A stretch of DNA of 64,000 nucleotides from Armatimonadota bacterium (GTDB lineage Bacteria > Armatimonadota > Zipacnadia > Zipacnadales > UBA11051). Position numbers and translations under genes: made by a program. The notes below the pieces were generated by a model. The model saw nothing but the letters and a program-made list of their open reading frames with translations, was not told where the DNA came from and searched no databases. This document shows, piece after piece, positions 37,355 through 61,113 of the stretch (positions are counted from its first letter, which is position 1; the number at the start of each line of letters is the position of its first letter). The DNA lies in contig JABLXH010000016.1 in NCBI GenBank assembly GCA_013178155.1, positions 1 to 64,000 on the forward strand. Direction: 5' to 3'.

Positions 37355-39309
37355 TCAGATCCAGCAGATGATGTTGCCGGTCTTGCCGGTGAAGTGGTCC
37401 ACCACCAGCCAGGCGGCGTTGATGGTGAACTGGCCGCAGATCAGGCCGAGGAACACCGGCCGGAGCCGCTGGTACTGCCGGTTGCCGCCATAGCGCAGGA
37501 TCAGCGACTTCAGCAGCCACGCCAGGAAGCAGGTGAACCACATGGTGTCCATCATCCACACCCCGCCGACCGCGAGGCCGAGAGGGTGGATGGACCAGCC
37601 GGGGTACTGGAACCGCAAGCCCGCCAGAGCCGGGTACAGCGCCCCGCCGGCCGCCGCCAGCCCCAGGCCGTACCACGCAGGGCCGGTCGGGTCCTGGATC
37701 ATCTGCGCCAGGTACGAGTAGTTGAAGTTCGGCCCGGCGTTGAAGTACCAGTTGTTCATGGTCACGCCACCCTGGGCGTAGGCGCGGGTGGTTGTGAGCC
37801 AGATGGACGAGACGGCCGCCACGACGAGGGCGATCAGGTAGCCCCAGACCAGGCGCCCCCGCCGGTCCTCGACCACATCGGCGGCTTTGAGGCTGTTGGC
37901 CACGGCGCACATCACGAAGTTGCGGTTACCCGAGCACCAGACAAAGGTCAGCCCGGCGCCCACAACGCCCGCCGGCCCGAGGGCCCGCGACCCGAGCCAG
38001 GAGATCACCATGTTGGGGGCTTGCTTGGGGCTGGTGGCAGCCGCGAAGTTGAAGTCCGTCACGACGCGCGTAATGCCATTATGGAACACGAAAGCCAACA
38101 CGAGCAGCAGTCCGGCGGCCACTGGCAGTAGCCCCGACCGCACCGGCCACCAGACCATGACCGCTGACCCTCCGGCCAGCAGCCCCAGCGCGGCGCGAAA
38201 GGGCAGGATCTCCCGGGAGTCGTACTCGTCGCCCCCGCTGACTGCTGCCCGCCAGACCCGCCGCAGATGCCCCTGGCCCACCCAGAGGCTGGAGGCCACC
38301 AGGGCCACGAACGCTCCGGTGCCAAGGTGGATGAAGTAGGGCTCCTTCGCCCCGCCGGCCGCCCCCATCACCTCGGCCCCGGCCACACCCAGGATGTTCA
38401 GCACGCCCTGAGCGATGAAGTACAGCCGGTTCAGCAGCCACAGGCTCAGCGACGCCTCCCGGGTGACCATGTAGAAGAAGCCCAGGAGAGCCCAACTCAC
38501 CTGGATCTGCAAGGTCAGCTTGCTGCGGAACACCGGGATGTTGGCAACCTGAGGCACGGCGGGAATGGCCGGGAAGTAGGCGTTGAGACCCTTCAGCAGG
38601 CCCAGCACCACCGGGATGCTCAATCCCAGCCAGAACAGGCGGTTGGCGAGGATCGCCGGACGCCCGCCGGTCTCCGCCCCGGCCAGTTCCAGTGGTAGCT
38701 GGGTCAGCGAGTAAGCTGACCGCTCGTGGTCCACCCATTGCCGGCGCAACAACACCATCACCGCGATCATCATCAGAAACAGTGCGATGATAAGCGGGGC
38801 CCAGGCCAGCAGCGCCGGCAGCCACGGGCCCCATGCAGTCCGGGCTCCGGCTGGCAGTCCCTCGAACAGCGCGGTGATGACAGGAACGCCGACGCCCGCC
38901 CCAGGGGGCACAGCCCAACTCGGGAAGTGCTCCAGCAGCAGCTTCTCCCAGTGGTTCTCGGGTGTGGCATAGTAGAACGCTGCCTAGGGGAAGGGGATCA
39001 GGCAAGCGGTGAAACCTGGGTGCAGATGGGCGAGGCCACGATCGGCATTGAGTAGATGGTGATGATTTCGGCCGGGCGCAGGGCATAGCGGGGTGCGAAC
39101 CGGCTCAGTGGCGCCTGCACCAGCAGACAGAACGCAGACAGCAGGAAGATGGCCCCGGGGGTGCTGAAGTCCAGGGTCATGTACGAGCCGCGGATGACAT
39201 GATCCACCCACGGGCCGCCAAGCCCAATGGCCAGCGCCCCCAACGTCCCGATGAGGAGAGCCCGGCAGGTGATGGCTCCCCCCGCCGCGTTGCCCTGCAC
39301 GGTCAACAC
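37355..39309 (-). pseudogene. DUF6785/DUF6784-type membrane protein, copy 2, broken
   Basis: Together two reading frames cover a full-length family member. The first (39309 to 38998, 103 codons from GTG) has the first two membrane helices and ALRPAEIITIYSMPIVAS, then ends at TGA 38998-39000. The second frame resumes with FYYATPENHWEKLLLEHFPSW, equivalent to copy 1's FRYASPENHWEEL, and runs through RRQWVDHERSAYSLTQLPLE to the typical ending LILRYGGNRQYQRL. Reading that frame backwards gives GFTACLIPFP, then a TAG at 38984-38986. So both a frameshift and an in-frame stop separate the halves. The C-terminal part could still start internally (GTG or ATG near 38911). It directly follows the GH106 gene with 4 bp between stop and start. 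Confidence 0.75.
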
Positions 39310-43010: not shown

Positions 43011-45473
43011 ATGGTTGAATGCGTATGGGTGCTATTGGCGTTGCTGGTCACCCTGACCCTGTTGCAGACCGCGGCCGCGGGCGAAACACCTGTCGCCGAG
43101 CTGCCGGACCACTTGCGGTGCTCAGGCCTGCCCACCCAGACCGAGGTTGCCACCGTGCATCGGTGGGCCGACGCGGCGTTCTCGGCGGAAGACCGCGGCT
43201 GGCTCGACGGCTGGCTGCGGACCGAGCTGCCCTTCACCTTCAGCTATGATGGACAACCTTTCGCCGAACTGGCGCGAACCTGGCCCTGCACCCGCCGCGA
43301 GCCCGTCGCGAGCGCCGGGGGGCAGACGCAGGAGATCACCTGGCAGGCGCCGGACGGTCTGCAGGTTACCTGCCAGGTCCGCCGCTTCGCCGCTTTCCCG
43401 GCCGTGGATTGGCTGCTGAGCTTCCAGAACACAGGACCGCAAGAGAGCGGGCTGGTCACGGAAGTGCAGAACCTCTCCCTGACGGTGACCCACGATCTGC
43501 CAGGCCGTGGCTATACGGTCACCGGGGCGCACGGTGGCCGTTGTGGCCGCGATGACTTCATGCCCTTCCGGCTGAGCGTCCCCGAGCCGCGGGCCCAGAC
43601 CGGCCCCTCGCTTGAGCTCGTTCGCCAGGACCACGAGCAGCTCGAGGTCAACCAGTCCATCCTGCGGACCCCGCTGACCATCGGCGATCGGCAGTTCACC
43701 TCAGGCCTGGGGACCCACGCCACAAGCCATCTGCGTCTGGTCTCGCCGGAACCCATGGCCCGCTTCGCGGCGTGGATAGGGGTGGACGCTAACGAGCGCA
43801 CTCGCGGTGGGGCCGGCTCCGTGGCGTTTGTGCTTGTGGCTGACGGCGCTGAGGTCTTCCGTTCCGCCATCATGCGCGGCGGCGAAGCGGCGGCCCGGGT
43901 AGAGGTGGACTTGGCCGGGGCCCGGGTCCTGGATCTGCACGTCGAGGACGCCGGTGACGGCCCGACCTGCGACCACGCCGACTGGGCCGAGGCCAGCATC
44001 GCCTTCGCTGACGGGACGGTTCGCGCTCTGACCGAGATCCCGCGCTACCGTCCGCAGGGCGTGGTGCTGGGCTCCAGGGGCTCTTCCAGCAACGAGCAGC
44101 TCCCCTTCTTCGGCATCGAAAGCCCCGAGGGGCGAGGGGTGCTCGTGGGGGTCGGCTGGACCGGCAACTGGCAGGCTCAGGTCACCCGCGACGGTGGCCG
44201 GCTTGAGGCACGCGCGGGGCTGCCCGAGACGCGCTTCCGGCTGCGGCCAGGCGAACGGGTGCGCGGGCCACGGATTCTGATGCTGGCCTGGTCAGGCGAA
44301 CCCTTGCATGGGCACAACATGCTCCGCACTCTCCTGCGCGAGCACTACGTGCCACGACTGAAGGAGGGCCTGCAACACCCTCTGGTGACGGTCAACACCT
44401 GCTTCACCCACAACGGAGCCGGCGGGTTCCTGACGCAGGCCAACGCCGCCAACCTGCGGCCGCTGGTGGAGCCCTTCGTTGAGCTGGGGGCCGAGGCGTT
44501 CATCATTGACGCAGGGTGGTACAAGTGCCAGGAGTGGCCCGACCTCTTCACGAGCAAAAATTACGCGATTGACCCTGCCAAGTACCCGGAGGGCTTCCGC
44601 CCGCTGTCAGACCCTCTGGCAGCCGCGGGGGTCACCTTCGGCCTGTGGTGCCCACCTGAAGCCCTGGGGCGCATGGATGACCCGGCGAACCGCGAGAAGT
44701 TCCTGGAGATCATTGACGGTTTCGTGCGCAACGAGGGCCTGGGCCTGTACCGGCAGGACGACGGCTTCGTGCCACCACCCGAAGCCCCTGACCGGGTCGG
44801 TGTGTCGGAGATGCAGCATATCGCCTGGCTCTACGAGCTGCTGGACGAGATGCGCCGGCGCTACCCTGACCTGATCATGGAAGGCTGCAGTGGTGGCGGA
44901 CGTCGGGTGGACCTGGAGACCCTGGCCCGCTTCCACTGGCACCAGAAGTCCGACCGGTGGTATGACTCCGTCAGCGACCAGTGCGGTATGTACGGGGCCA
45001 ATCTCTTCCTGCCAGGCGGAGTGCTGAACCTGCCGACCAGCGCCACCGATGACTTCGGGGCCTGGTCCAGCTTTGGGGGGCAGTTCTCTCTGGGCTGGCA
45101 CCCCATCGCCGAGGGCTTCCCGCTGGCCCAGGCGAAGCGGCAGGTGGCGCTGTACAAGCGCCTACGGCCTTGCCTAGCCGGCGATTTCCATCCGCTCACG
45201 CCCTGCGACCTCGGTGCGGCCTGGCTGGCCTACCAGTTCCATCGCCGCGACCTGAACCGGGGGTTTGCCCTGGTGTTCAAACGGGACGCGGTCGCAGGCG
45301 ACGCCTTCGGATTGGCTTTGCAGAGCCTTGAGCCGGGGGAGAGATACGAGGTGGTGCGCGAGTCCGTCGGGGAGCATGCGGTGTTCACTGGCCGCGAACT
45401 GGCCGCAGGCATCGAACTGGCCGTCGAGGCCACACCGGGGTCCGAGATCGTGAGCTACAGCGCGCTGCCGTGA
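43011..45473 (+). CDS. Secreted GH36-type alpha-galactosidase with internal NPCBM domain
   Basis: A melibiase-clan glycosidase of 820 aa. ATG 43011 follows GAGGAGGACC; the signal is WVLLALLVTLTLLQTAAAG. A beta-sandwich (about 65-175, LPFTFSYDGQPFAELART) is interrupted by an NPCBM-type domain (about 220-340; FTSGLGTHATSHLRLVSPEP, ...CDHADWAEA) before it resumes and leads to the barrel. Motifs: AFIIDAGWYKCQEWPD, TFGLWCPPEALG, LYRQDDGFVPP with presumed nucleophile D583, MEGCSGGGRRVDLE, and HQKSDRWYDS with presumed acid/base D648. The nucleophile motif is QDDGF rather than the usual D-F-N, so specificity may differ from the copy at 4.7 kb. It is divergent from GH106 and ends 10 bp from the convergent ankyrin gene. 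Confidence 0.86.
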   Translation: MVECVWVLLALLVTLTLLQTAAAGETPVAELPDHLRCSGLPTQTEVATVHRWADAAFSAEDRGWLDGWLRTELPFTFSYDGQPFAELARTWPCTRREPVASAGGQTQEITWQAPDGLQVTCQVRRFAAFPAVDWLLSFQNTGPQESGLVTEVQNLSLTVTHDLPGRGYTVTGAHGGRCGRDDFMPFRLSVPEPRAQTGPSLELVRQDHEQLEVNQSILRTPLTIGDRQFTSGLGTHATSHLRLVSPEPMARFAAWIGVDANERTRGGAGSVAFVLVADGAEVFRSAIMRGGEAAARVEVDLAGARVLDLHVEDAGDGPTCDHADWAEASIAFADGTVRALTEIPRYRPQGVVLGSRGSSSNEQLPFFGIESPEGRGVLVGVGWTGNWQAQVTRDGGRLEARAGLPETRFRLRPGERVRGPRILMLAWSGEPLHGHNMLRTLLREHYVPRLKEGLQHPLVTVNTCFTHNGAGGFLTQANAANLRPLVEPFVELGAEAFIIDAGWYKCQEWPDLFTSKNYAIDPAKYPEGFRPLSDPLAAAGVTFGLWCPPEALGRMDDPANREKFLEIIDGFVRNEGLGLYRQDDGFVPPPEAPDRVGVSEMQHIAWLYELLDEMRRRYPDLIMEGCSGGGRRVDLETLARFHWHQKSDRWYDSVSDQCGMYGANLFLPGGVLNLPTSATDDFGAWSSFGGQFSLGWHPIAEGFPLAQAKRQVALYKRLRPCLAGDFHPLTPCDLGAAWLAYQFHRRDLNRGFALVFKRDAVAGDAFGLALQSLEPGERYEVVRESVGEHAVFTGRELAAGIELAVEATPGSEIVSYSALP

Positions 45474-45483
45474 GGCGTCTGCC

Positions 45484-47061
45484 TTACCCCTCGGGCATCC
45501 GCTCGCGCAGCAACGTCGCCAGCTCCTGGTAGCCATTCTCCTCTGCCAGTTCGAGAGCCGTGCGACCCTCACTGTTCTTGGCCTGGGGGTCGGCACCGGC
45601 GTCCAGGAGCAGTTTGCCGATCTCCAGCCGCGCCTGCCGGCGTGCCATGGCGGCCTCGTCGTCACCTTCGGCGGCCGGTTCCTCGTTCTCCCACGCGAAG
45701 AGGGTCTCAGCCAGGCTGCGCTCGGCGGCAGCGTGCAGAGCAGTGCGCTCCAGCTTGTCACGCAGGTTCACACCGGCTCCCGCCTGGACCAGCAGGCGCA
45801 CGGTCTCCAGCAGCCCCTCCTGTGCCGCCTCGTGCAGGGCCGTGAAGCCCCGCTTGTCCGCAGCATTCACCTCGGCGCGCGCCTCCAGCAAGACCTTCAC
45901 GACCTCCGGATGCCGGACCGCTGCCTGCAGCGCCGTTGTCTCGTCCTCGGTCCGGGCAGTCAGGTCGGCCCCGTGCGCCAGCAGCACTCTGACCACTTCA
46001 GGGTGTCCCTCGATGGCCGCGTCGTAGAGTGCCGAGCGGCGGTACTCATGCGTGGCCGTGATGTCAGCGCCTCGCGCCAGGAGCAGCTCAACGGTCTCGC
46101 CATGACCGCCCTTGCAGGCCTCGTGCAGAGGCGTCGTGCCGTTGGCCGTTGCCACGTTGACCTCGGCACCGCGGTCCAGCAGAAGGGTGGCCGCCTCGGT
46201 CCGTCCCTTGGCTGCGGCGAAGTGCAGCGGCCGCTCCTGCCACTTGCTTTCGGCGTTGATCGCCGCCCCTTCGTCCAGCAGCAGCCCGATCACCTCGATA
46301 CTTCCACCCTTCGCGGCCCAGTGCAGCGCCGTGCGTCCACTCCACTCTACGGGCGTGTCCACGGCCACACCGGCGGCCAACTGCCGCTTGACCTCCTCCA
46401 CATCGCCGACCCCGGCGGCGGTGTGGAGGCTATGCCGGGCGCCCTTCTCCAGCAGAAGCGCCACCGTCTCCGGGTGGTCAGCGTCGAGGGCGATTGCCAG
46501 CGGCGTCCGCTGGTCATCGGTCTCGGTACTGATGTCGGCCTCGTTGTCCAGCAGGAGGGCTGCCAGCTCGGTGTGCCCGGCCCCCGCCGCCACGGCCAGT
46601 GGCGTACGGCCGTATGCATCCCTCGCCTCGATATTCGCTCCATGCTCCAGCAGGAGAGTGGTCACCTCGGCGCTACCCGCCGCGGCCGCACGGTGCAGGG
46701 GCGTGTCGTCTTCTGCCAAATCACCGCCTGCATTGGCCCCCTGGTCCAGGAGCAAACGCGCCATCTCCAGGTCACGCCCCTCGGCGGCGAGCGACAGGGG
46801 TGAGGCGCCGATCGCCGGCAGGTCCGGGTCGGCCCCCGCCTCAATCAGGACCTTCGCCATCTCCAGGTTCCGGTTGACGACCGCCCAATGCAGAGGCCCG
46901 AACTCATCCTCGTAGATCTCGTTTGGGTCGGCGCCCTCGTCCAGGAGCTGTTGCACCTGGGCCAGATCGTTCGCCTCGGCCGCCTCGATGAGGTCGGCTG
47001 AAGCCGCGTTGAGCACCAGCAACGCCGCAAGACCAATGGCCGATCGCAGAGCCAGCATCAT
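45484..47061 (-). CDS. Exported ankyrin-repeat protein
   Basis: A 525-aa protein with an N-terminal signal (LRSAIGLAALLVLNAASADL) followed almost entirely by about 14 ankyrin repeats, shown by recurring G.TPLH.AA..G...VV.LLL..GAD.N. patterns (for example GRTPLAVAAGAGHTELAALL, GFTALHEAAQEGLLETVRLL). A 40-residue acidic break (ENEEPAAEGDDEAAMARRQ) near 460 interrupts the last repeats. Ankyrin arrays bind other proteins; an exported one may act as a periplasmic scaffold. The start is ATG 47061 (or the next codon) after GGGGAG. Upstream is AT-rich and carries an inverted repeat. No obvious partner gene lies adjacent. Confidence 0.88.
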   Translation of the reverse strand: MMLALRSAIGLAALLVLNAASADLIEAAEANDLAQVQQLLDEGADPNEIYEDEFGPLHWAVVNRNLEMAKVLIEAGADPDLPAIGASPLSLAAEGRDLEMARLLLDQGANAGGDLAEDDTPLHRAAAAGSAEVTTLLLEHGANIEARDAYGRTPLAVAAGAGHTELAALLLDNEADISTETDDQRTPLAIALDADHPETVALLLEKGARHSLHTAAGVGDVEEVKRQLAAGVAVDTPVEWSGRTALHWAAKGGSIEVIGLLLDEGAAINAESKWQERPLHFAAAKGRTEAATLLLDRGAEVNVATANGTTPLHEACKGGHGETVELLLARGADITATHEYRRSALYDAAIEGHPEVVRVLLAHGADLTARTEDETTALQAAVRHPEVVKVLLEARAEVNAADKRGFTALHEAAQEGLLETVRLLVQAGAGVNLRDKLERTALHAAAERSLAETLFAWENEEPAAEGDDEAAMARRQARLEIGKLLLDAGADPQAKNSEGRTALELAEENGYQELATLLRERMPEG

Positions 47062-47489
47062 CCACTCTCCCCTTCTGGTGCCAACCGCGACGTATTCGGA
47101 CGTGCGAAAAACTGTGAGAAAAAAACCGCACTTCGGTCACTGACGGTAAACCACTGTGGTAGTCTTCTGAGTGGATCGCAGCCTTTCCTGCTTGTCTTTC
47201 CGGAGGCATCACCACTGCGGCTTTGTGACACAGCCCTGATGCCCCGTAACCGCGAAGCGAATGACGAAACCGATGGACCAGGCAGTCTTTCCTGGCGAGC
47301 CCGCATCACGCCGCATGTTGGCGCCCAGAGCGGCGCTCAGGCCCCGACTGGTGCTTCTCGTGGTCTTCATGCTGGTGTTGCTGGCACTGCATGGCTGTCC
47401 GGAGAGTATGGAAGGTCTGATCGGGTCAGTGGCCACGGCAGACCAGACCCGCCCGGATTGCGTCGCCGCGTACAGAGGCGATGCTGCCC
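47062..47489. other. Intergenic region with AT-rich inverted repeat
   Basis: A 428-bp region upstream of the ankyrin gene and downstream of mrp. It contains GTGCG...CGCAC arms around two A-runs (47102-47131), AT-rich against the GC-rich background and probably part of the ankyrin gene's promoter or leader. A small ACCACTGTGGT palindrome lies near 47150. The rest may hold a small plus-strand lipoprotein gene (listed separately). Confidence 0.45.
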
Positions 47490-47560
47490 TCACTCTGCCG
47501 CCTGCGCCGGAGACTGACGCTGCTGGAGGCCACGCAGCAGTTCGTCCACGGTCGCGCTGA
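47315..47560 (+). CDS. Possible small lipoprotein
   Basis: An 81-codon frame whose first 28 residues look like a lipoprotein signal: basic MLAPRAALRPR, a long hydrophobic run, then LHGC as lipobox (Cys28). The remainder is short, Ala/Pro-rich and unlike any family I know. No clear ribosome site is seen, and the last 71 bp overlap the end of mrp on the other strand. This could be a chance frame; an upstream in-frame ATG at 47261 is an alternative start. Confidence 0.25.
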   Translation: MLAPRAALRPRLVLLVVFMLVLLALHGCPESMEGLIGSVATADQTRPDCVAAYRGDAALTLPPAPETDAAGGHAAVRPRSR

Positions 47561-48371
47561 ACGCCAGCCGCACCGCCTCCGAAGCCCCTGGCCCCAACAG
47601 CGGCCGGCCCTGATCGCCCAGAGCCGCGATCTCAGGGGCCAGTGGCACGCGGCCCAGGAAGGGCACCCCCATGCGGGCTGCCATGTCCTCGCCGCCCCCG
47701 CTCATCAGCACATCGGTTCTCTGACCGCAGTGGGGACAGACAAAGCCGCTCATGTTCTCGATGACGCCGAGTACCGGCAGCTTCAGGGCATGCAGGAAGT
47801 TGATGGCTTTGCGGCAGACACTGAGGCTGGCCTCCTGCGGTGTCGTGACAATCACGCCCCCATCAGCGTCAGGGAACATCTGCCCGACCGTCAGCGGCTC
47901 GTCGCCGGTACCCGGCGGCAGGTCCACCACCAGGTAGTCCAGCGGCCCCCACTCCACGTCGGCGATGAACTGGCGGATGACGCCGCCCTTCAGCGGCCCG
48001 CGCCAGATGGTTGGTGAGTCTGGATCGTCCAGCAAGAAGGCGATAGACATCACCTGGAGCTGCTCCAGCACGGCAACTGGCTCCAGGACCCGGAAGCGCT
48101 GCCCAGCCAGCCCCATGAGGAGGGGGATGGTGGGCCCGTTGATGTCGGCGTCAAGCAAGCCGGTGCGACTACCCCGCAGGGCCAGGGCCCACGCCAGGTG
48201 GGCCGCGACCGTGCTCTTCCCTACCCCGCCTTTGCCACTGAGCACCAGGATCTTGTGAAGTATGTTGGCTGACTTCTCCCGGATGCGCTGCTCTTGCTGC
48301 TCGTACTCGCCGGCCGTTCCGCCGGCTCGGTCGCTGCTGGGCTGGTAGCGTGCCCGCCATGGGTCAGACAT
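47490..48371 (-). CDS. Mrp/NBP35-type Fe-S cluster carrier ATPase
   Basis: A cytoplasmic P-loop ATPase of the Mrp/ApbC/NBP35 family (293 aa) that carries and transfers [4Fe-4S] clusters. The deviant Walker A SGKGGVGKS is at about 45-53, followed by the switch DADINGPTIPLLMG and VVDLPPGTGDEPLT. The CPHCG pair of cysteines (about 210), in ENMSGFVCPHCG, is the bridging-cluster ligand of Mrp proteins. ATG 48371 (MSDPWRARY) is preceded by AAGGTGAT, better than the upstream in-frame start. It is the last gene after LpxL', the radical SAM remnant and the ferredoxin-MinD ATPase, suggesting joint function in Fe-S metabolism. Confidence 0.92.
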   Translation of the reverse strand: MSDPWRARYQPSSDRAGGTAGEYEQQEQRIREKSANILHKILVLSGKGGVGKSTVAAHLAWALALRGSRTGLLDADINGPTIPLLMGLAGQRFRVLEPVAVLEQLQVMSIAFLLDDPDSPTIWRGPLKGGVIRQFIADVEWGPLDYLVVDLPPGTGDEPLTVGQMFPDADGGVIVTTPQEASLSVCRKAINFLHALKLPVLGVIENMSGFVCPHCGQRTDVLMSGGGEDMAARMGVPFLGRVPLAPEIAALGDQGRPLLGPGASEAVRLAFSATVDELLRGLQQRQSPAQAAE

Positions 48372-48415
48372 CAGATCACCTTCCCGGATGTAGTGCGCCA
48401 AGTGTCTTCAGGGGA

Positions 48416-49273
48416 TTACCCCGCAAGACCCCAGATCCGCTCCCAGGCCTTGCGGAGGCCCTGGGACACCGGACCGTCATCGTACTCCACAAGGGGTATC
48501 TGGGCGGCGTTGGCCTTCACGACGACCTCTTCGAAGGGGAGCGAGGCCAGGAGGGGGATGTTACGGCTCGCGCAGAACTCGGCAATGTCAGCCGCGTTGT
48601 CGGGGTTGATGTCGGCCTTGTTGATGATGGCCGCCATCGGGACTCGGAGCTGCTCAGCCAACTGCACCACCCGGGCCATGTCGTGCATGCCCGAGAGACT
48701 GGGCTCGGTCACGATCACGGCTAAGTCGGTATCCACCAACGAGGCGGTGGCGGTGCAGGCGATGCCGGGGGGCCCGTCCATGAGGATCAGCGAGCGGCCC
48801 GTGCGCCGGGCAACCTCTTCGGCCCTCTGTCGCACGACTGTCACCAGCCGTCCGCTGTTCTCGGCGGCCGGGCTGAGCCGCGCATGTACCATCGGCCCGT
48901 AGGTGGTCATACCCTCGTACAGGACGCCGTTTACGACCGTCTGCAGGGTCAGGGCCTCCCGCGGACAGGCCAGGACGCACAGTCCGCAGCCCTCGCAGGC
49001 GGCGGCGCTGACCGCCTCGACGGTGATGGCATCGAAGCGGCAGCGCCGCTCACACTCGCCGCACTGCGCACACCTGGCCGGATCGCGCACAGCAATCCTG
49101 GCCCCCCGGTACTCCCCAGTCCGCTCGGGCTGCGGGTGGAGCAGCAGGTAAAGGTTGGCGGCATCCACGTCGCAGTCGGCCAGTACGGTGTCTCCGGCGA
49201 GGGCGGCGAACGACCCCAGTACGGTCGTTTTGCCCGTACCTCCCTTGCCGCTGAGTGTCACGATTTGCTTCAT
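48416..49273 (-). CDS. MinD-superfamily P-loop ATPase with inserted 2[4Fe-4S] ferredoxin domain
   Basis: A cytoplasmic ATPase of 285 aa. Walker A SGKGGTGKTT is at about 8-17, DCDVDAANLYLLL follows, and a bacterial-ferredoxin insert (about 60-112) has two Cys clusters: CAQCGECERRC and CEGCGLCVLACP. The second half contains LILMDGPPGIACTATASL and TEPSLSGMHDMARV. This arrangement is known mainly from anaerobes and archaea, often near NifX/NifB-like or Mrp genes, with probable roles in Fe-S cluster assembly or redox-coupled maturation. The start ATG 49273 overlaps the radical SAM stop by 4 nt (ATGA), so the genes are translationally coupled. Mrp follows after 44 bp. Confidence 0.92.
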   Translation of the reverse strand: MKQIVTLSGKGGTGKTTVLGSFAALAGDTVLADCDVDAANLYLLLHPQPERTGEYRGARIAVRDPARCAQCGECERRCRFDAITVEAVSAAACEGCGLCVLACPREALTLQTVVNGVLYEGMTTYGPMVHARLSPAAENSGRLVTVVRQRAEEVARRTGRSLILMDGPPGIACTATASLVDTDLAVIVTEPSLSGMHDMARVVQLAEQLRVPMAAIINKADINPDNAADIAEFCASRNIPLLASLPFEEVVVKANAAQIPLVEYDDGPVSQGLRKAWERIWGLAG

Positions 49274-50043
49274 TCGGTGCTGCTCTCCTCATCGGCTCGC
49301 GCGCGGGCGGCCGCGTAGTAGTCCCGGCCGCCCACGGTTTCCCGCGTGATGCCGCCCTGCCGCAGCAGGTGGCCAAGATGCTTCAGTACCTCATTGCGGT
49401 GCAGACCCAACCCGTAGGCGATATCGTCGAGAGTGCAGGGCCGACGCGCCAGCAAAGCCCGGACCTCGGCCTCTCCCGCCTCGCCGGGGCTCCCGGGCAC
49501 CCTCGCGTAGTCGGCGATGACCTCAGCTGGCGGGCTGAAGAGGGCCGCCAGCGCCTCCAGGCTAGCCGGCAGCACGGCGTGAGCACAGCTCTCGGCTGGA
49601 GGCCGGGCAACCGTGTTCAACTGCACGCGGTGTGGGCGTATCCTGTGCGCCAGCGCGGCGATCCTGCCCACCGCCGACGGCGTCGAGGTGATGCCCCCCA
49701 GCAGGAAGACCTCTAGCCAGAGCTGTCCACTGAAGCCCTTCCGGAACTCGCGCAGGCCGTCCACCATGTCGGCGAAGTTGATCGCCGTGTGAGGGCGGTT
49801 CACACGCTGGAAGGTCGCGTCGTCCCCGGCGTCCAGCGACGGCACCACCAGGTCCGCCTCAGCCAGCGCCGCGCGGACCTCAGGCTCCGACAGCAGCGAG
49901 CCGTTGGTCAGCACGGCCACGGGGACGGCGGTCATCGCCTTGAGCGCCGCTACCACCTCACCCAGTCGAATGCGCAACGGATGTTGGCCAGGGCGATGCG
50001 ACGCCAGCGGAAGCCCACATGATACCCGTAGAGGCCTAGCCAC
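49270..50043 (-). CDS. Radical SAM protein (COG0731-like), N-terminal half missing
   Basis: The readable frame has a clear COG0731-type radical SAM C-terminal half: LGEVVAALKAM, PVAVLTNGSLL, ADLVVPSLDAGDD, RVNRPH, QLWLEVFLLGG, HRVQLNTVARPPAE, then a winged-helix segment (PCTLDDIAYGLGLHRNEVLK) near the C-terminus. Homology begins only at LGEV (about 49,965). The upstream part with the CxxxCxxC cluster motif and GSGEPT is absent, and the frame upstream (MARPLRVSCGLPLASHRPG) is not homologous. The DNA just upstream instead encodes an LpxL-like N-terminus in another frame, so a deletion appears to have joined two genes. The product as read cannot bind the catalytic cluster. Its stop overlaps the MinD-ATPase start. 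Confidence 0.78.
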   Translation of the reverse strand: MARPLRVSCGLPLASHRPGQHPLRIRLGEVVAALKAMTAVPVAVLTNGSLLSEPEVRAALAEADLVVPSLDAGDDATFQRVNRPHTAINFADMVDGLREFRKGFSGQLWLEVFLLGGITSTPSAVGRIAALAHRIRPHRVQLNTVARPPAESCAHAVLPASLEALAALFSPPAEVIADYARVPGSPGEAGEAEVRALLARRPCTLDDIAYGLGLHRNEVLKHLGHLLRQGGITRETVGGRDYYAAARARADEESSTE

Positions 50044-50165
50044 CTGCCCAGGCCCTGGACAGCCGGCCAGTCCCGGCCAGCGGCGAACCGGTAGGCGAGG
50101 TCAATGACGGCGGGACCAACGACGGCACGCAGATGCCGGCGCAATTCCTTGATGGTGCGACTCAC
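49950..50165 (-). pseudogene. Truncated LpxL/HtrB-like lipid A acyltransferase N-terminus
   Basis: From GTG 50165 the frame encodes about 65 residues like the start of LpxL/HtrB lysophospholipid acyltransferases: IDLAYRFAAGRDWPAVQGLG, WLGLYGYHVG, and RWRRIALANIRCAF, equivalent to the conserved 'rrRRiAl.Nl.laFp'. It stops 7 codons later at a TAG inside the radical SAM coding stretch. The catalytic H-x4-D and everything after it are missing. The family is secure enough given the pattern and the LPS-export genes elsewhere, but the match is short. It is presumably one side of a deletion whose other side is the radical SAM gene. Confidence 0.55.
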
Positions 50166-50393
50166 AGGGAGCAAACTCCAGGGCCAGCTGCGGGCGTAAG
50201 GAACTATGGAACGAAGCGATCTGGACAGTGGAACATCATACTTCACGGACGCCCGCATTGCAACCCGACTCGCGGTCTCAGGGCGAACGGCTGTGGGCAA
50301 GGTGAAGCCCCCAGCGGCGGCGAATGGGGCCCCTGTCGTACCGTCCACCGTCTCGCCCGACCCAACGCTTAACCGGGAATAGTGGCTCCGCCG

Positions 50394-52232
50394 ATGACGC
50401 TACGCGCGCTCCTTATCGCCCTGGCACTGTCCCTGGTGGGGATCGTCTGGATCCACCAGGCCAGCCTGATGCAATCGCCCTGGAACCTCTATGCCTTCGT
50501 CTATCTGCTGAGCGTGCCACCGGTCCCGGCAGTCGCCTTCCTGTTCCTGCTGGCCGTCGGCGCGGCGTTGTGGCGACGGGTGCGACTGCGACCGTTCACT
50601 TCCCGCGAACTGGCCCTGATCTACATCATCCTGGTCCTGGCCATCCCCCCTACCACCTTTGGCATCATCGAGATGATGCTGCCCTGGCCCAACGTGGCCG
50701 TCTACTTCGGCACACCGCAGAACGGGCTGATCGAGGTCGCCCAGCAGTACTTCCCCAAGTGGATGCTGCCGCAAAACGAAGAGATTGTCCGCACCATGTT
50801 CGAGGGGGCAGACGATGGTCGCGTTCCATGGCGCTTCTGGGTCATGCCGCTTCTGGGCTGGACGGCCCTAAGCGGCCTCATCTTCTTTGGCTCCATGTGT
50901 CTCGTGACGATGTTTCATCGGCAATGGTCGGACCATGAGCACCTGCGCTACCCACTGCTGCTCCTGCCCCTGAGCGTCACCGATGACCGTAGCAGCCACA
51001 GCGAGGTGCGGGGGGTTTTCCGTAACCCATTGACCTGGCTGGCCTTTGCGCTGGTGTTCATCCACCACAGCATGAACGTGGCACACCTGTACAACCCCGC
51101 CATCATGGCGCTGATGGACCGCTACCGCGTGGGACAGGTCTTCACGGAACGCCCGTGGACGGCCTTCAGCGGCCTGGTTTTCATGCACCGTCCGCAGATG
51201 ATCGGCTTCTCCTACTTTGTGTCCGTGGATGTGCTGTTCTCGGGCTGGTTCTTCTTTCTGATCCAGTCCGCTATCCGCATGGTCGCCGACATCCTGGGCT
51301 ATCAGGGCGCGCCCGGCTTCCCCTTTGACCCGCAGCAAGGCGCAGGGGCCTACACTATGGCCTTCTTCATCCTGATCTGGGTGGGGCGTGAGCACCTGGG
51401 CAAGGTGATCCGCGGGGCGCTGGGCCAACACGCGGACACGGACCGTGGAGACTTCATGTCGCCAGCGCTAATGCTCGGCGGCGCCCTGGCCTGCTTCGGG
51501 CTGTTGGTGTGGTGGTGTGGTCATATGGGCATGTCGCTGGTGCTAGCGGGGCTTTTCTTTTTCATGATCATCGCCTGGGCCGTGGTCTATGCTCGCATCC
51601 GCGCCGAGGCCGGGGTGGCCAGCATGTGGGCCTTCCCCTTCATCCAGCACGTCGAGACCCTTCTGGCCGCCTTCGGAACCCGCGGGCTCATCCGCGGTTC
51701 AGACGCGACCAACCTTGTCATGCTCAACATGTTCGGCTGGCTAAGCCACGGCTACTTCCCCTCGCTGACGGGTACCGTCGCCGAGAACAACAAGCTGGCT
51801 CAGGAGACCGACCTGCCGCGGCGCGTCGTGCCCTGGGTCATGGTCCTGGCCTTCCTGGTCGGCATGGGCGGGGGGTATGCGGCCACGCTCACCTCTTACT
51901 ACCGCGAGGGCGCCAACGTCCTGCACGGCGGCGGCGCCGGCGGCGCTTACACCTTCAGCAGCGCTCTGGGCCGCTGGAACGGTGTGGCGGCCGCCATCCG
52001 CGCCCCCGGTGGCCCGAACCTGGCGCAGATGGGTGGGGCGAAGATGTCGGGAATACCAGGCTTCGTGGCAACGTCCAACAACGGGTGCATGGCGCTGTGC
52101 GCTACCGGCCCGGGGCGCGGCCGTTGCTGGTTTCTGGCAGTCTGCTCCGACAAGTGGCAGTGGTATTCCGGTGGCGCGGCCCGTTTCGGGGACGCCGAGG
52201 GAGATGAGATACCATGCGAAGTTGGCACTTGA
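50394..52232 (+). CDS. DUF6785/DUF6784-type membrane protein, copy 3, altered C-terminus
   Basis: A multi-spanning membrane protein, 612 aa. The N-terminal part follows the family: LRALLIALALSLVGIVWI, LRPFTSRELALIYIILVLAI, VYFGTPQNGLIEVAQQYFPKW, HRQWSDHEHLRYPLLLLPL, FSYFVSVDVLFSGWFFFLIQ. After GPNLAQMGGAKMSGI (about residue 545) it leaves the family. The expected WWP.HP.GYA helix and RYGG ending are replaced by about 60 residues containing CMALCATGPG and DKWQWYSGG, unlike a membrane protein. Frames were checked and none restores the ending. The last 19 bp overlap the next gene's start. An in-frame GTG 12 nt upstream, better spaced from GGGAA, is an alternative start. A transport role is inferred only. 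Confidence 0.75.
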   Translation: MTLRALLIALALSLVGIVWIHQASLMQSPWNLYAFVYLLSVPPVPAVAFLFLLAVGAALWRRVRLRPFTSRELALIYIILVLAIPPTTFGIIEMMLPWPNVAVYFGTPQNGLIEVAQQYFPKWMLPQNEEIVRTMFEGADDGRVPWRFWVMPLLGWTALSGLIFFGSMCLVTMFHRQWSDHEHLRYPLLLLPLSVTDDRSSHSEVRGVFRNPLTWLAFALVFIHHSMNVAHLYNPAIMALMDRYRVGQVFTERPWTAFSGLVFMHRPQMIGFSYFVSVDVLFSGWFFFLIQSAIRMVADILGYQGAPGFPFDPQQGAGAYTMAFFILIWVGREHLGKVIRGALGQHADTDRGDFMSPALMLGGALACFGLLVWWCGHMGMSLVLAGLFFFMIIAWAVVYARIRAEAGVASMWAFPFIQHVETLLAAFGTRGLIRGSDATNLVMLNMFGWLSHGYFPSLTGTVAENNKLAQETDLPRRVVPWVMVLAFLVGMGGGYAATLTSYYREGANVLHGGGAGGAYTFSSALGRWNGVAAAIRAPGGPNLAQMGGAKMSGIPGFVATSNNGCMALCATGPGRGRCWFLAVCSDKWQWYSGGAARFGDAEGDEIPCEVGT

Positions 52233-53347
52233 TGTTGCTGGCCCTGGGGCCCGCCGTGGTCGGGATGGCGTGGGCGGAGGAGGGACAGGGACCTACGGTG
52301 ACGCTGTCAGTCACTGACCAGCCGGCCACCGAAGTGGCTCAACAGCTCACTCAGATGACGGGCGTGCAGATCGCCATCGTGGGACCGGCGGAGGCCAAGG
52401 TGACGTTTGCCGTGGAGGACGCCAAGCTGGACGAGGCCGTGAAGGCCTTCGCGCAGAGCTTCGACGCCTCCTGGCTGCGCTCGTACTTCATTGAGGCCCA
52501 GCCCCCCCAGGAGCCCTACACGGCAGACCAGATCCTGGCGGCGCTGGAGTACCAGCGTAACGCCTGGATGCAGAGCATGTCGCAGGAGCAGCGGGAAGCT
52601 CTCATGGCCCAGTGGCGCGAGACATCTGAGGCTCAGCGGCTCCTGGCAGGGACAGTGACGATCGAATACCCGGGGGCCGGGGAATCGCCGCTGCGCGGTG
52701 GGTTTGGCCCTCCTGGAGGCGGACAGGAGGGTCCCGGCGGCCAGGCCCCGGCGGGCGGACAGGGGGGGGCCGGCGGGCCGATGTTCGACCCGGTGCGCAG
52801 TCTGATCAATCCAGTTCGCTCCGACACGGTGACGCTGGCCCTGGACAACGTAGCCCTGCCCCAGGCCTTGCAGCAGATCACCACGTTGACCGGGTTCCTT
52901 GTCTGCGCGTCCCAGGATCTGGCCGGAAATGTCACGCTGACGGCTGACAACCAGCCGTTGGACCAGGTGCTCGACCAGATCGCCGCTGCGGTCAACGCCC
53001 AGTGTCGGCGCGTCTATGCGCTCTCCGTGCCCAGGGTGCTGACCGAACAGGAGATCGCGCAGCGCATGGAGGCGGGCTTCCAGAGCCGCATGGCGCAGTT
53101 TTGGGCCAGCTCCCCCGAGGAGCGCGCCCAGCAGGTCAACCAATGGGTCGAGCGCATCAACAGTATGGCCGAGCGCATGAGGCAGCCCGGTCCAGACGGT
53201 CAGCCCAACCGTTTCGCCCAGGCGTTCCAGCGCTTCGCCCCGCGCATCTTGTCACGCCTGGCGGAGTATTCCGCCGGCTTGAGCCAGTCCCAGCGGGCTG
53301 AGCTCAAGCCGATCATCACGGCGCTGGGCAACGCGCTCAACCGTTAG
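52214..53347 (+). CDS. Exported STN-domain protein (secretin/TonB short N-terminal-like)
   Basis: A 377-aa exported protein with signal LMLLALGPAVVGMAWA. Two STN-like domains are visible: about 18-88 (TVTLSVTDQPATEVAQQLTQ, ...KVTFAVEDAKLDEAVKAF) and about 197-275 (TVTLALDNVALPQALQQITT, ...NVTLTADNQPLDQVLDQIAA). A Gly/Pro/Gln-rich linker (about 150-190) lies between them, and Gln/Met-rich helices follow each. STN/secretin-type domains form periplasmic rings in type II/IV pilus secretins or TonB systems, but no secretin barrel follows here. The ATG 52214 is placed after GGGAG and within the end of the preceding gene. The gene after it encodes a prepilin, which fits a pilus-type or pseudopilin-linked role. 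Confidence 0.68.
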   Translation: MRSWHLMLLALGPAVVGMAWAEEGQGPTVTLSVTDQPATEVAQQLTQMTGVQIAIVGPAEAKVTFAVEDAKLDEAVKAFAQSFDASWLRSYFIEAQPPQEPYTADQILAALEYQRNAWMQSMSQEQREALMAQWRETSEAQRLLAGTVTIEYPGAGESPLRGGFGPPGGGQEGPGGQAPAGGQGGAGGPMFDPVRSLINPVRSDTVTLALDNVALPQALQQITTLTGFLVCASQDLAGNVTLTADNQPLDQVLDQIAAAVNAQCRRVYALSVPRVLTEQEIAQRMEAGFQSRMAQFWASSPEERAQQVNQWVERINSMAERMRQPGPDGQPNRFAQAFQRFAPRILSRLAEYSAGLSQSQRAELKPIITALGNALNR

Positions 53348-53380
53348 GCCGCCGAATAGCGTGGTAACGAGGTGATGTGC

Positions 53381-53914
53381 ATGGTCCGACGTCTGCGGGG
53401 CGGGTTCAGCCTGATCGAGCTACTCGTGGTCATCGCGGTCATCGCCGTGCTTGCCGGGATGCTCTTCCCGGTGTTTGCGCGGGCGCGGGAGAAGGGGCGA
53501 GAGACGAACTGCAAGGCGAATCTGCAGCAGATCTTCCTCGCCGCGAAGGCCTACTCGATGGACTACGGCGACTGCCTGCCGCTGGCCAACGAGTACCCGG
53601 CGCCGCCCCCACCGGCGGACGCTTACCATCAGGGCCCGCCAGGCATCGTCGAGGTGCTGGAGCCGTACATCAAGAGCACACAGATCTTCCGCTGCCGCAG
53701 TGACAAGGACCAGATGTGGCAGACCCAGGGGACCAGCTATGACTGGGGCTACGGTACTCTAGACTGCGGCATGCCCGCGCAGGACATTGACTGGCCATAC
53801 CGCCGCGAGCCCAGCACCTTCGTCCTCTGTGGTGACTACTCTCCCGACTGGCACACTAAGGGCTACAATGTGGTGTACTGCGATGGCCACGTCAAGCAGC
53901 TAGCGCCAAAGTAG
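53381..53914 (+). CDS. Type IV prepilin-like protein with H-X9-DG C-terminus (DUF1559-like)
   Basis: A pseudopilin-type protein of 177 aa. It starts MVRRLRGG|FSLIELLVV, the class III prepilin peptidase site (cleavage after Gly-Gly, N-methylated Phe), followed by the hydrophobic helix and FPVFARAREKGRETNCKANL. The end has the H-X9-DG motif (HTKGYNVVYCDGHVK). Proteins of this kind are abundant in Armatimonadota and Planctomycetota and are exported by type II/IV-like machinery to unknown extracellular sites. ATG 53381 is chosen after GAGGTG; an in-frame GTG at 53372 lies inside the ribosome site. It is 33 bp after the STN gene and has a terminator behind it. Confidence 0.9.
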   Translation: MVRRLRGGFSLIELLVVIAVIAVLAGMLFPVFARAREKGRETNCKANLQQIFLAAKAYSMDYGDCLPLANEYPAPPPPADAYHQGPPGIVEVLEPYIKSTQIFRCRSDKDQMWQTQGTSYDWGYGTLDCGMPAQDIDWPYRREPSTFVLCGDYSPDWHTKGYNVVYCDGHVKQLAPK

Positions 53915-53937
53915 GCTTCGCGAGCCAGGGACCATGC

Positions 53938-53966
53938 GACGGGGACCGGTTCCGCCGGCCCCCGTC
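53938..53966. terminator. Hairpin between convergent genes
   Basis: GACGGGG-A-CCGG / CCGG-C-CCCCGTC with a 5-nt loop. It lies 23 bp after the prepilin stop and 12 bp before the stop of the convergent gene; the palindromic form could serve both strands. T-runs are weak. Confidence 0.65.
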
Positions 53967-53978
53967 TGCCTTCTGTGG

Positions 53979-55934
53979 TCAGCGGTAGGCTTCGATTTCG
54001 GCCACATGCACGCCGCAGTTGGCGCTGTTGCTGAGCATGACGACGCGGACGTGACGTGCCTGGCACGGCGCAAAGCGGTGCAACGTCCCTTCGGCCGTTG
54101 CCAGGGCATCATCTGTCTTCTCAGCCACCTGCGTCCAGGTCTTTGAGTCGGTCGAAAGCTCCACCCGGTAGTGGTAGAACCGCTCATCGCCGTGGTAGTT
54201 GGTCACCCGCACCGCACTGATGGTCTCGATGTTACCCAGGTCCACACTGACCCAGTGCGGCGGGTAGTCGGCACCCCAGCAGGTCTGCGTGTTCCCGTCG
54301 GTCGCGTACTCGGGCCGATAGCCCAGGCCGTGCGGCATACCCCAGGCCGTTGCCGTGTAGTCAGAACACTTGACGGGCCGGAAGGCTGCGAGATTGCCCT
54401 GCATGCGGCCCGTCAGCGAGCCCCGCTGTGCCGCCAGATAGGCAGCCAGAGCGGCCTCGGCCCGAGCCAGTTCCTCCGCCGCCCGCGCCCGCCACCGGGC
54501 GCGTGTCTGGCGGCCCTCGGCGGCCAGGGCGGTGTAGTCCTCAGGCCCGCGCACCGCATCAGACGCGGGAACGTAGTACTCCCGATACAGCTTCTCTTCC
54601 TCGGGCAACAGGTAATAGCGCCGCTCGCCCACCGCCTGGCCACCAGGCCAGAACGGAAGCAGCACGTTCGCCTGCAGCGACCAGTCCATCATCTCCCGAT
54701 CTGGCCGGCATGTCTCCCAGCACAGCGTCCCGATGCTGTTGCTGATGTTCAGGCCCGAGACCCAGTAGCGCAGGCGCTCGGGGTTGATGCGGCTCTTGTC
54801 AAAGGTCTCGCCGCGCAGGATGTAGTCGGCATAGGTGTCGGCGAAGGGGCAGTAGACCCCCAGACGGAAGAACGGCTCGAAGGTGCAGTGCACGTACAGT
54901 CGTCGGGTGCCCAGAAGCTTGCGTGTCCGTCGCGCCGCCTCCCAGGCCATGAGCGGATCGGCGAACATGCCGTCCCAGTACAGCCCGTCCACCTTGTACT
55001 CGTTCAGCAGCCACTCCGCCTCGGCGAGGTACATTTCCACTGCCTCCGGCTTGTGCCGGGGCTTGAATGCCTCATCAGGTTGTCGGGCGGGCATATAGTA
55101 GAAGCAGGAGCTATAAGGCAGGACCAGGTACCCCAGTCCGTGCGCCTTATCTATGACCTGCCGGAAGCGCTCGGGGTCCCGCGGCCGAATGTGCTGGACG
55201 CCAAAACCATCCCAGGCCTCCAGGTGCAGCACGAGCACCTTCGCCAGCTTGCGCCATTCGACGAGCTCCTCGTCAGTCGGCAGCGGACGGGGCGAGAAGC
55301 CTGGCTGGCCTTCAGGGAAGAAGTGGACGATGCGCTCCTCGTGCTGCTGCTGCCAGTTGTACTCTCGGGGAGGACAGACCGAAAGTAGAAACACCGCACC
55401 CGGCAGCAGCTCCTGGCGCACCGCGAAGCCGGCGTCGCGGCGCTCAGCGCGAGCCCGCTCCGGAGCAGGAGACAGGAAGTAGACCCCCACGCCGCCGCTC
55501 TCGTCGAGAGCCATGGTCACGCTCTGCTCCACGGCCCAGTACTCCGGCGTGAACCCACCGTCCACGCGGATGAGTGTCTCCTGTGGCGCCTCGATACGGA
55601 GCACGGAGTCGCAGTGTACCGCCAGGCGCAGGCCGCCTGCGGTGGTGAAGGCAACGACCTCGGTATCCTGCGACGTAACCCGCAAGCCCGCCAGTGCGCG
55701 CAGGCCCAGGCGCAGGACGCCCAGGCGCCGCTGGGCGCTGATCCTCTGCGCGAACACGATCTCGCCACGCGCCGGCATCAGTTCAAACACGGCCCCTGTG
55801 GTCTCGACCACGAAACCCGTGGCCTGGACCTCACAGCGCTCTATCGTCATGTTGTAAGGCCATGGCATGGGGGCGGCCAGGGCCACGCCGGAGAGCGCCA
55901 TGGCGGCCGCCGTTAGGAGCATTACTCGCAGCAT
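53979..55934 (-). CDS. Secreted glycosidase-like protein with C-terminal discoidin domain
   Basis: A 651-aa exported protein. ATG 55934 follows AGGAG at good spacing; the signal is MLRVMLLTAAAMALSGVALA. A beta-sandwich (about 30-190) leads to a likely TIM barrel with KVLVLHLEAWDGFGVQHIRP, DKAHGLGYLVLPYSSCFYYM, EWLLNEYKVDGLYWDGMFAD and RRLYVHCTFEPF, where acidic residues at strand ends suggest catalysis. A helical stretch (about 480-520, ARWRARAAEELARAEAALAA) precedes an F5/8 type C (discoidin) domain (about 525-651; YATDGNTQTCWGADYPPHWV, ISAVRVTNYHG) that usually binds carbohydrate. The family of the barrel is not recognised. The gene is divergent from the sigma-factor gene. Confidence 0.78.
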   Translation of the reverse strand: MLRVMLLTAAAMALSGVALAAPMPWPYNMTIERCEVQATGFVVETTGAVFELMPARGEIVFAQRISAQRRLGVLRLGLRALAGLRVTSQDTEVVAFTTAGGLRLAVHCDSVLRIEAPQETLIRVDGGFTPEYWAVEQSVTMALDESGGVGVYFLSPAPERARAERRDAGFAVRQELLPGAVFLLSVCPPREYNWQQQHEERIVHFFPEGQPGFSPRPLPTDEELVEWRKLAKVLVLHLEAWDGFGVQHIRPRDPERFRQVIDKAHGLGYLVLPYSSCFYYMPARQPDEAFKPRHKPEAVEMYLAEAEWLLNEYKVDGLYWDGMFADPLMAWEAARRTRKLLGTRRLYVHCTFEPFFRLGVYCPFADTYADYILRGETFDKSRINPERLRYWVSGLNISNSIGTLCWETCRPDREMMDWSLQANVLLPFWPGGQAVGERRYYLLPEEEKLYREYYVPASDAVRGPEDYTALAAEGRQTRARWRARAAEELARAEAALAAYLAAQRGSLTGRMQGNLAAFRPVKCSDYTATAWGMPHGLGYRPEYATDGNTQTCWGADYPPHWVSVDLGNIETISAVRVTNYHGDERFYHYRVELSTDSKTWTQVAEKTDDALATAEGTLHRFAPCQARHVRVVMLSNSANCGVHVAEIEAYR

Positions 55935-56139
55935 CCTTATCTCCTGAACTCGCGCGACTAACGCCTCACGGCGCGCCATACAGGTTCGCGCCTGGCTGGT
56001 TCGCTCCCTTCCATGGCACAGCGAGGTGAGAAGAGTCCAACACCTGCTCCGCGAACTGACACAAAGAGTTGTGGGAGCCGGTCCAGAGGGTAAAGGCCAG
56101 CCGGCCAGTGGCAAGCCACGAGGATAGGGAACGAGAACC

Positions 56140-56751
56140 ATGAGTCTGAACCTGCTCGGCGCAACGCCCGCCAGCGACTTGGCCTCGGCGATCCGCAACC
56201 GCGATCTGGAAGCCTGGAACCGCCTGGTCGCCGATCAGCACAGACGGCTCTTCAATCTGCACCTGCGGCTGACTGGTGACCGTGAAACGGCCGCGGATCT
56301 GACCCAGGAGACCTTCGCCACTGCCTGGGAGAGCGCCGACCATTTCATCGGTGCGTGCCGGCCCGAGACCTGGCTGTATGGTGTGGCCCTGAACTGTCAC
56401 CGCAACTGGCGACGGCGGACAGGCCGTCGCGAACCGCCCGACACCCTCGATGAAAGCCTCCCCGACCCGACACCCACTGCTGACGAGCTGGTCGCCCGGC
56501 GGCAAGACGTCGCGCGTCTCTACGAGGCCGTAGCAGCCCTCCCCGAGGCCTACCGGAGGGTCGTGGCGTTGCGCTACTTCGCCGGGGCCACGTCGCCGGA
56601 GATAGCGGCCGTCGAGGGCGTGGACGCCGGCACCGTGCGGTGGCGGTTGCACCAGGCGATGAAGCAACTGTGGCGGGTTCTCCAGCCACAGGCAGGAAAG
56701 GAGCAGCACAATGGACCAGCAGCCCCGGGACGAGTTCACCTCGCCCCTTGA
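56140..56751 (+). CDS. ECF-type RNA polymerase sigma factor
   Basis: A sigma-70 family extracytoplasmic-function sigma factor, 203 aa. Region 2 (about 30-95) has LFNLHLRLTGDRETAADLTQ, ETFATAWESAD and ETWLYGVALNCHRNWRRRTG. Region 4 (about 130-180) has LYEAVAALPEAYRRVVALRY, SPEIAAVEGVDAGTVRWRLH. It directs RNA polymerase to a specific regulon. The downstream gene starts 41 bp before this gene ends, with its own ribosome site, and encodes a membrane protein, the usual place for an anti-sigma factor. The 205-bp divergent region upstream may hold an autoregulated promoter, but I cannot define it. Confidence 0.93.
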   Translation: MSLNLLGATPASDLASAIRNRDLEAWNRLVADQHRRLFNLHLRLTGDRETAADLTQETFATAWESADHFIGACRPETWLYGVALNCHRNWRRRTGRREPPDTLDESLPDPTPTADELVARRQDVARLYEAVAALPEAYRRVVALRYFAGATSPEIAAVEGVDAGTVRWRLHQAMKQLWRVLQPQAGKEQHNGPAAPGRVHLAP

Positions 56752-57958
56752 CGACGTCTTTGCCAACTTGCCGGAGGAGCAGCCACCGGCCGACCTGGAG
56801 GCCCGCTGCCGTGAGGTCCTGCAAAGCAGAGGCGTCGGTATCCACCGTCCCAGGACCTGGGCCCCATGGCGCACCCTCATGGCCGCTGCCGCCAGCTTTG
56901 TGGTGCTGGTGGGTGTGACTGCGGTGATGATGTCAGTCAGCGGCCGGGCCAAGCCGGTTGCCCCCATGGGACCGGGTGCCGCCGCCAAGGCGTTTGGCAC
57001 GACCGAGTTCGCCCCCACGCCGGGCGGCGGCGTGCAGGCCACGCTGCCGGAGGTGGAGAACGGGCGCCCGGGCGAGGGGGCAATAGCAGCAGGGTCGGGC
57101 GGTGGACGAATGGGAGGACCGGCAGCGACCCCGCTACCCCTGGCCTCCGAGGCGCTGCGCGTCCGCGGTCAGGGCCGAGCCGAGGACCGGCGCATGCGGA
57201 CGCAGGAGGCCGCCGCCGACCGCGTCGCTGCAGCGTCGAAGGCTGCTCCCGCAAACTCCCCCAGCGGCTGGGTGGGGGGCAATGAGCAGGCCATGCCTGG
57301 CGAAGGAGCAGCGCCCACCAAGCCCTGGCGTGACGAGTCCGGCGAGCGTCAGCGCATCGTGCACAAGGATATGGAGATCGAGGTGCGCAACGTCGAGCAG
57401 GCCCACGAACAGGCGGCCTCCATCATCGAGAAGGCCGACGGTTATGTGGACAGTGAGGCGATGGAGGTGCTGGAGGACGCGCCCGACTACGCCCACATCA
57501 CCGCACGTGTACCGGTGAAGGCACTGGATGGCGTAGTGGCGCAACTCCGACGGCTTGGCAAGGTCACGCGGCTGGTGGGCGAAGGCGAAGATCGAACGAG
57601 GGAGTACGTGGCGGGCGGAGGTGAGATCCGCGGTGCCGCGGAGGACGAGATGCAGCTCGTGGAGCGCTACGAGAAGGAGCGCGATCGCCAGCGGAAGCAG
57701 CAGCTTTACCGGCAGATCCAGGCCCTGCGGGAACGCAACAAAGCCCGTAAGGAGCAGCTACTGCGTCTTAGCGACCAGACCCATTACGCGACCCTCGACC
57801 TGACGCTGACAGAGGCGGGAGGAGCGGCTCGGCGGTTCCTGGCGAAGCTTGGCGACAACGCCCTGAAGGTGCTGAGCTGGGTGGGCGCCACGGCCGTCAT
57901 CTGGCTGCCGCTGCTTACCGTGGGCTACCTGCTCTGGCGGCGCCGGGCCGTGGCTTAG
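56711..57958 (+). CDS. DUF4349 membrane protein, probable anti-sigma partner
   Basis: A 415-aa protein starting at ATG 56711 after AAAGGAGC, inside the end of the sigma gene. A cytoplasmic N-terminus (1-52; LDDVFANLPEEQPPADLEAR) resembles anti-sigma N-termini but lacks the zinc HxxxCxxC motif. A membrane helix follows (about 54-75), then a long Ala/Pro/Gly-rich stretch. The DUF4349 domain (about 215-380) comes next: RIVHKDMEIEVRNVEQAHEQ, ADGYVDSEAMEVLEDAP, a coiled-coil-like Arg/Glu/Lys region, and THYATLDLTLTEAG. A final membrane helix ends in RRRR-type basic residues (about 385-410). Overlapping translation with the sigma gene suggests a sensor or anti-sigma role; this is inference. Confidence 0.85.
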   Translation: MDQQPRDEFTSPLDDVFANLPEEQPPADLEARCREVLQSRGVGIHRPRTWAPWRTLMAAAASFVVLVGVTAVMMSVSGRAKPVAPMGPGAAAKAFGTTEFAPTPGGGVQATLPEVENGRPGEGAIAAGSGGGRMGGPAATPLPLASEALRVRGQGRAEDRRMRTQEAAADRVAAASKAAPANSPSGWVGGNEQAMPGEGAAPTKPWRDESGERQRIVHKDMEIEVRNVEQAHEQAASIIEKADGYVDSEAMEVLEDAPDYAHITARVPVKALDGVVAQLRRLGKVTRLVGEGEDRTREYVAGGGEIRGAAEDEMQLVERYEKERDRQRKQQLYRQIQALRERNKARKEQLLRLSDQTHYATLDLTLTEAGGAARRFLAKLGDNALKVLSWVGATAVIWLPLLTVGYLLWRRRAVA

Positions 57959-57982
57959 GCAATGCCCGAACACCAACGCAAC

Positions 57983-58015
57983 CGCGGGCCGGCTGCACAC
58001 CGGCCCGCGCGTTTT
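57983..58015 (+). terminator. Intrinsic terminator after the sigma/DUF4349 pair
   Basis: A perfect 10-bp stem (CGCGGGCCGG / CCGGCCCGCG) with a 7-nt loop, followed by CGTTTT, starts 24 bp past the DUF4349 stop. Confidence 0.8.
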
Positions 58016-60813: not shown

Positions 60814-61113
60814 GTCGGCCTCCACTCAGTCTCCGGGCGCGTCGTCAGAGCCCGCGCGCCGATTACCTGGGCCGCGGTCCATGTCACCAGTTACCGCGGC
60901 GGGACGCTACCGCTGCGCGTAACAGGAGCCGCCCAGGTCCGGCCGTGGGAAAAGCCTGTCAGGGCCGAAGGCCTCGCCGACGGCCGCACCAAGGTTTCCT
61001 GGGCAGCGCATGGTTCACCTTGTTCCGCCGGGGGAGGACAGCCGCGGCCCCCCGGCGAAGCGCTCCGACAGCACACCAGTGCGCGATAGCTTGTCTCTAA
61101 GGGGTACCGGCGC
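60814..61113. other. Divergent intergenic region with strong hairpin
   Basis: A 300-bp gap between two divergent secreted-protein genes. A perfect 9-bp inverted repeat (CGCCGGGGG / CCCCCGGCG) at 61026-61057 lies 56 bp before the start of the RIFT-barrel gene and could fold in its mRNA leader. A CCGCGG palindrome is repeated near 60870-60900. No gene is seen. Confidence 0.5.

Follow-up and report, generated by a model that had tools for sequence, protein, structure and literature searches.

Contigs that unite unrelated loci are known from two settings. In assemblies of strain-mixed metagenomes, chimeric contigs arise at branches of the de Bruijn graph, where genes are cut at the join and their native continuations are left as separate contigs. 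Chimeras also form during amplification or ligation; for MDA, more than 70% of chimera junctions carry 2-21 nt of complementarity, and more than 85% of the rearrangements are inverted sequences with intervening deletions (PMC1855051). One of the genes at the locus described here belongs to an operon whose nearest described counterpart is the ORP (orange protein) cluster of Desulfovibrio, in which Orp3 and Orp4 each have two ferredoxin motifs, Orp8, a Di-Nase protein of a single domain, carries a Mo-Cu cluster, and Orp9, or MrpORP, is an Mrp ATPase that hands iron-sulfur clusters to Orp3, Orp4 and Orp8 (PMC6345978).

The stretch of DNA that we analysed (the window, 64,000 nucleotides) is G000:C68:1-64000, part of a 5.53-Mb draft genome in 211 contigs. 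C68 resembles de Bruijn-branch chimeras in that contig ends overlap its interior by exactly 127 bp and in that genes cut at a join continue natively on separate contigs, and differs from such chimeras generally in that its joins lie only 2 kb apart. It also resembles amplification and ligation chimeras to the extent that unrelated loci are joined, with 2 bp of complementarity at one junction. C68 is probably an assembly chimera, built at graph branches with k=127.

An lpxL gene and a radical SAM gene meet at an exact breakpoint

A preliminary description of the window proposed that two genes on the same strand, encoding an LpxL-like acyltransferase and a COG0731 radical SAM protein, had been joined when the ends facing each other, and any sequence separating them, were deleted. 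The features at this join are:

49967..49968, no strand: junction 1, where lpxL (right, minus strand) abuts the radical SAM gene (left)
49967..50165, minus strand: first 66 or so codons of an lpxL-type acyltransferase gene, with the remainder at C150:128-885
49967..50093, minus strand: 127-bp stretch identical to the start of C150 by sequence comparison, an assembly-graph branch
49270..49968, minus strand: radical SAM gene (COG0731-like, C-terminal HTH) reduced to its 3' two thirds, with the N-terminus and its CTYDCIYC motif on C108
49734..49968, minus strand: 235-bp overlap with the start of C108, with 2 mismatches (49835 A/G, Leu/Pro; 49912 C/A, silent)

When the window segment 49,700-50,240 was compared with the rest of the genome, two other contigs were found, C150 (39.6 kb) and C108 (4.0 kb). 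Identity to C150 ends at 49,967 and the match to C108 starts at 49,968 and runs leftwards, which places the break exactly, in agreement with the earlier observation of a switch within about 10 bp of 49,970. The two native sequences have in common a 2-bp CG at the junction and no longer shared stretch. As had been described, the minus strand encodes an LpxL-like N-terminus, in a frame that runs from a GTG at 50,165 to ...IALANIRCAF; past the breakpoint this frame reads ...DWVRW*, and the middle of the radical SAM protein begins in another frame at LGEVVAALKAM, its upstream part being held by C108.

The catalytic parts of both proteins, correctly reported as absent from the window, are present on the two partner contigs. 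C150 begins with 127 bp equal to window 50,093..49,967, after which the LpxL frame goes on as GNTVSEQRV..., with a Pfam match to Lip_A_acyltrans (E 1.2e-48) and the motif HLGNWE. The fragment in the window gave no Pfam match and has no HX4(D/E) motif, and within the window it does not qualify as a PF03279 protein. Similarly, the window's radical SAM ORF has a weak and partial Pfam match (profile positions 58-154 of 166) and lacks the CxxxCxxC cluster that marks the N-terminal part of PF04055; C108 carries this cluster: beyond junction 1 it encodes the N-terminal part of the radical SAM protein, CTYDCIYC included, as well as further genes of the operon.

At position 49835, where the window encodes Leu and C108 Pro, nearly all aligned relatives have Leu (SLDA). 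This difference may reflect a second haplotype or a noisy contig end.

Related genomes keep the two genes apart and at full length

To the left of the breakpoint, the radical SAM gene is followed by two ATPase genes:

48416..49273, minus strand: MinD-type ATPase containing ferredoxin motifs, encoded next to the radical SAM gene in the native operon
47490..48401, minus strand: Mrp/NBP35-type iron-sulfur carrier ATPase, in the same operon as the radical SAM and MinD-type genes

Window positions 47490-49968 and C108:1-3962 together make up an ORP-like anaerobe operon of genes for an MBL-fold protein, a Nitro_FeMo-Co protein, a MinD-type ATPase, the radical SAM protein, a second MinD-type ATPase and Mrp. 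In common with the Desulfovibrio vulgaris ORP cluster, this operon encodes a pair of MinD-type ATPases containing ferredoxin motifs, a protein of the Nitro_FeMo-Co (Di-Nase) type, and an Mrp ATPase for which MrpORP is the top NCBIfam hit. The Mrp protein in the window falls short of the MrpORP cut-off, with 335 bits where 450 are required, and has a length of only 303 aa; the radical SAM gene and the MBL-fold protein are additions relative to the ORP cluster. The resemblance may bear on a possible role of the intact operon, and does not bear on the join.

The same gene order was found in G013 and G023, which represent two other families of the window genome's order. On G013:C103, the MBL-fold, Nitro_FeMo-Co and MinD-type genes (the genes of C108) run directly into a radical SAM gene of full length, which is followed by the second MinD-type gene and then by Mrp, as expected if C108 precedes the window's left part. 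G023:C213 has this same order from the end of C108 through the second MinD gene. On neither contig does lpxL lie beside the radical SAM operon. Among radical SAM relatives, tabulated in 44 rows with three loci entered twice, the CxxxCxxC motif lies upstream and in frame in 43, which makes its absence from the window ORF more than chance, and no LpxL-like ORF was seen at any of the loci. Open frames are mostly 310-360 aa among the radical SAM relatives, Cys motif included, and mostly 300-400 aa among the LpxL relatives. The relatives examined have lpxL and the radical SAM operon in separate places, on different contigs wherever both were found; a scan of genomes of other species covered 31 loci, none of them from the same species. 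The operon order, together with the separate LpxL loci, indicates that C108 is the native partner of the radical SAM gene and C150 that of lpxL.

These comparisons bear on two readings in which the window is a faithful picture of the chromosome. According to the first, a short LpxL and an N-terminally short radical SAM protein are simply the normal form in this group, the finding that the preliminary description had named as one that would refute its deletion. For the genomes searched this is itself refuted, as their radical SAM and LpxL genes are full-length, and we give it practically no credence. According to the second, a fixed chromosomal deletion removed the ends at which lpxL and the radical SAM gene faced each other, together with all DNA between them. 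The same-strand orientation and clean junction accord with such an event, but the missing parts are found in the same genome bin and the two genes are not neighbours in the relatives examined; the arrangement expected of relatives, an intact lpxL followed by a full radical SAM gene, was not seen in them. What stands of the original proposal is that two unrelated genes on the same strand are joined, both truncated and both abnormal compared with relatives; what finds no support is the deletion of their facing ends and of intervening DNA, as C150 and C108 carry the sequence supposed to be lost.

The window contains a second junction, 2,068 bp from the first

Comparison of window positions 44,001-64,000 with the same genome located a further breakpoint of the same type as junction 1, at 52,034/52,035, which was absent from the preliminary description. 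Its features are:

52034..52035, no strand: junction 2, where a DUF6785 coding sequence abuts an intergenic stretch that natively follows C179
52035..52161, plus strand: stretch identical to the last 127 bp of C179 by sequence comparison
50382..52034, plus strand: DUF6785 gene, truncated at junction 2 before its DUF6784 domain; the ORF continues through unrelated sequence to 52232
49967..52034, no strand: segment S, the 2,068 bp between the junctions, with the 5' end of lpxL and the divergent DUF6785 gene without its 3' end

On the side of C179 (84.7 kb), the breakpoint falls just past the stop codon of a gene. The DUF6784 domain that the window copy loses is present in a DUF6785 paralogue on C150. 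Among the 40 DUF6784 copies in the genome, none carries the 127-mer of junction 2, and the native continuation of the DUF6785 3' end was not located among them. A fixed deletion leaves this second junction, 2,068 bp from the first and with a different partner contig, unexplained. Since a simple deletion predicts one junction where two were found, and since the partner contigs carry the missing sequence, we reject it and consider a fixed deletion very improbable.

The borders of S were also inspected for signs of transposition. No flank duplication of 4 bp or more was found near them, the longest terminal inverted match of S is 6 bp, and no transposase family was recognised among its scanned proteins. 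With neither target-site duplication nor terminal repeats nor transposase, insertion of S as a transposon or other mobile element is rejected.

Two kinds of sequence recur across this genome. The 40 matches to DUF6784 (PF20580), which include window positions 31459-31761 and 37382-37657, compare with none in 14 control genomes; the DUF6785/DUF6784 family is a large expansion in this genome. In addition, dozens of copies of a stretch of about 100-200 bp, at about 70-86% identity, are scattered over the genome, including window 53402-53533 and C150:32771-32965 and 33560-33730. Its copy in the window coincides with the first part of an ORF that reads MVRRLRGGFSLIELLVVIAVIAVLAGMLFPVFARAREKGRETNCKANLQQI, a sequence that looks like a prepilin-type N-terminus.

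The joins point to a probable chimeric contig

For three of the four junction sides, an alternative continuation is present in the same assembly (C150, C108 and C179); for the fourth, the DUF6785 side of junction 2, none was identified there, which counts against a chimera. Each of the three genes running up to a junction is interrupted in the window, and the frames of two of them, lpxL and the radical SAM gene, resume on partner contigs. At both joins there is an exact contig-end overlap of 127 bp, a length that suggests an assembler k of 127. There are two junctions, and the bin contains the sequence that continues lpxL, the radical SAM gene and the right flank; a chimeric contig accounts for this most economically. 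Under this reading, the 2,068-bp piece S of one locus would have been strung between two others, with the radical SAM/MinD/Mrp operon to its left and the locus continuing from C179 to its right, while the native continuations would have been left over as C150, C108 and C179. The joins would then have arisen in sequencing or assembly, from chimeric fragments or strain-mixed branches at k=127, and not in a living cell.

Contig-end overlaps were also looked for elsewhere. Stretches of about 20 kb in other parts of C68 and C150 showed none. In a sample of 81 contig ends compared with 590 kb, about one tenth of the genome, which limits the frequency of interior joins and does not measure it, the sole other overlap was that of C5 with C12, an end-to-end match of 247 bp with 2 mismatches that looks like the overlap of C108 with C68. 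When the far ends of C108 and C150 were traced further, no overlap with any other contig was found.

The reading that competes most closely with a chimera is a real rearrangement in a sub-population, in which one strain has S joined to the radical SAM fragment on one side and to the C179-side locus on the other, while other strains in the sample keep the intact arrangements seen in C108, C150 and C179. Both alternative arrangements do occur within one assembly, and the exact 127-bp overlaps suggest that join-crossing sequence was present in the assembler's graph, which makes real molecules in a minor strain possible. The 2-bp microhomology at junction 1 is compatible with end-joining, and two substitutions between C108 and the window in 235 bp fit two haplotypes, as expected of different strains. 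Such a rearrangement, however, requires at least two joins among three loci, with three genes broken in about 2 kb. With a simple insertion, both flanks of S would come from a single target site, yet they have different partner contigs, and mobile-element features are absent. It is also the window and not C108 that has the Leu of the relatives, and the differences in the overlap may be contig-end noise. We therefore consider a sub-population rearrangement unlikely. Slightly less likely still is its biological corollary, that a minority strain of this uncultured bacterium carries a multi-locus rearrangement inactivating, in one go, a lipid A acyltransferase, the radical SAM gene of the ORP-like operon and a DUF6785 membrane protein.

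Implications for reading this genome

Assembly error had been named as an alternative from the start, and the evidence leans that way: the lpxL-radical SAM join is best explained by an assembly fault, or at most by a strain variant, rather than by a notable deletion. The breakpoints at 49,967 and 52,034 should be flagged before claims about synteny or gene loss are drawn from C68. Because the bin encodes the missing halves of lpxL and of the radical SAM gene on other contigs, it would be a mistake to conclude from this draft that a gene fusion or gene loss has occurred.
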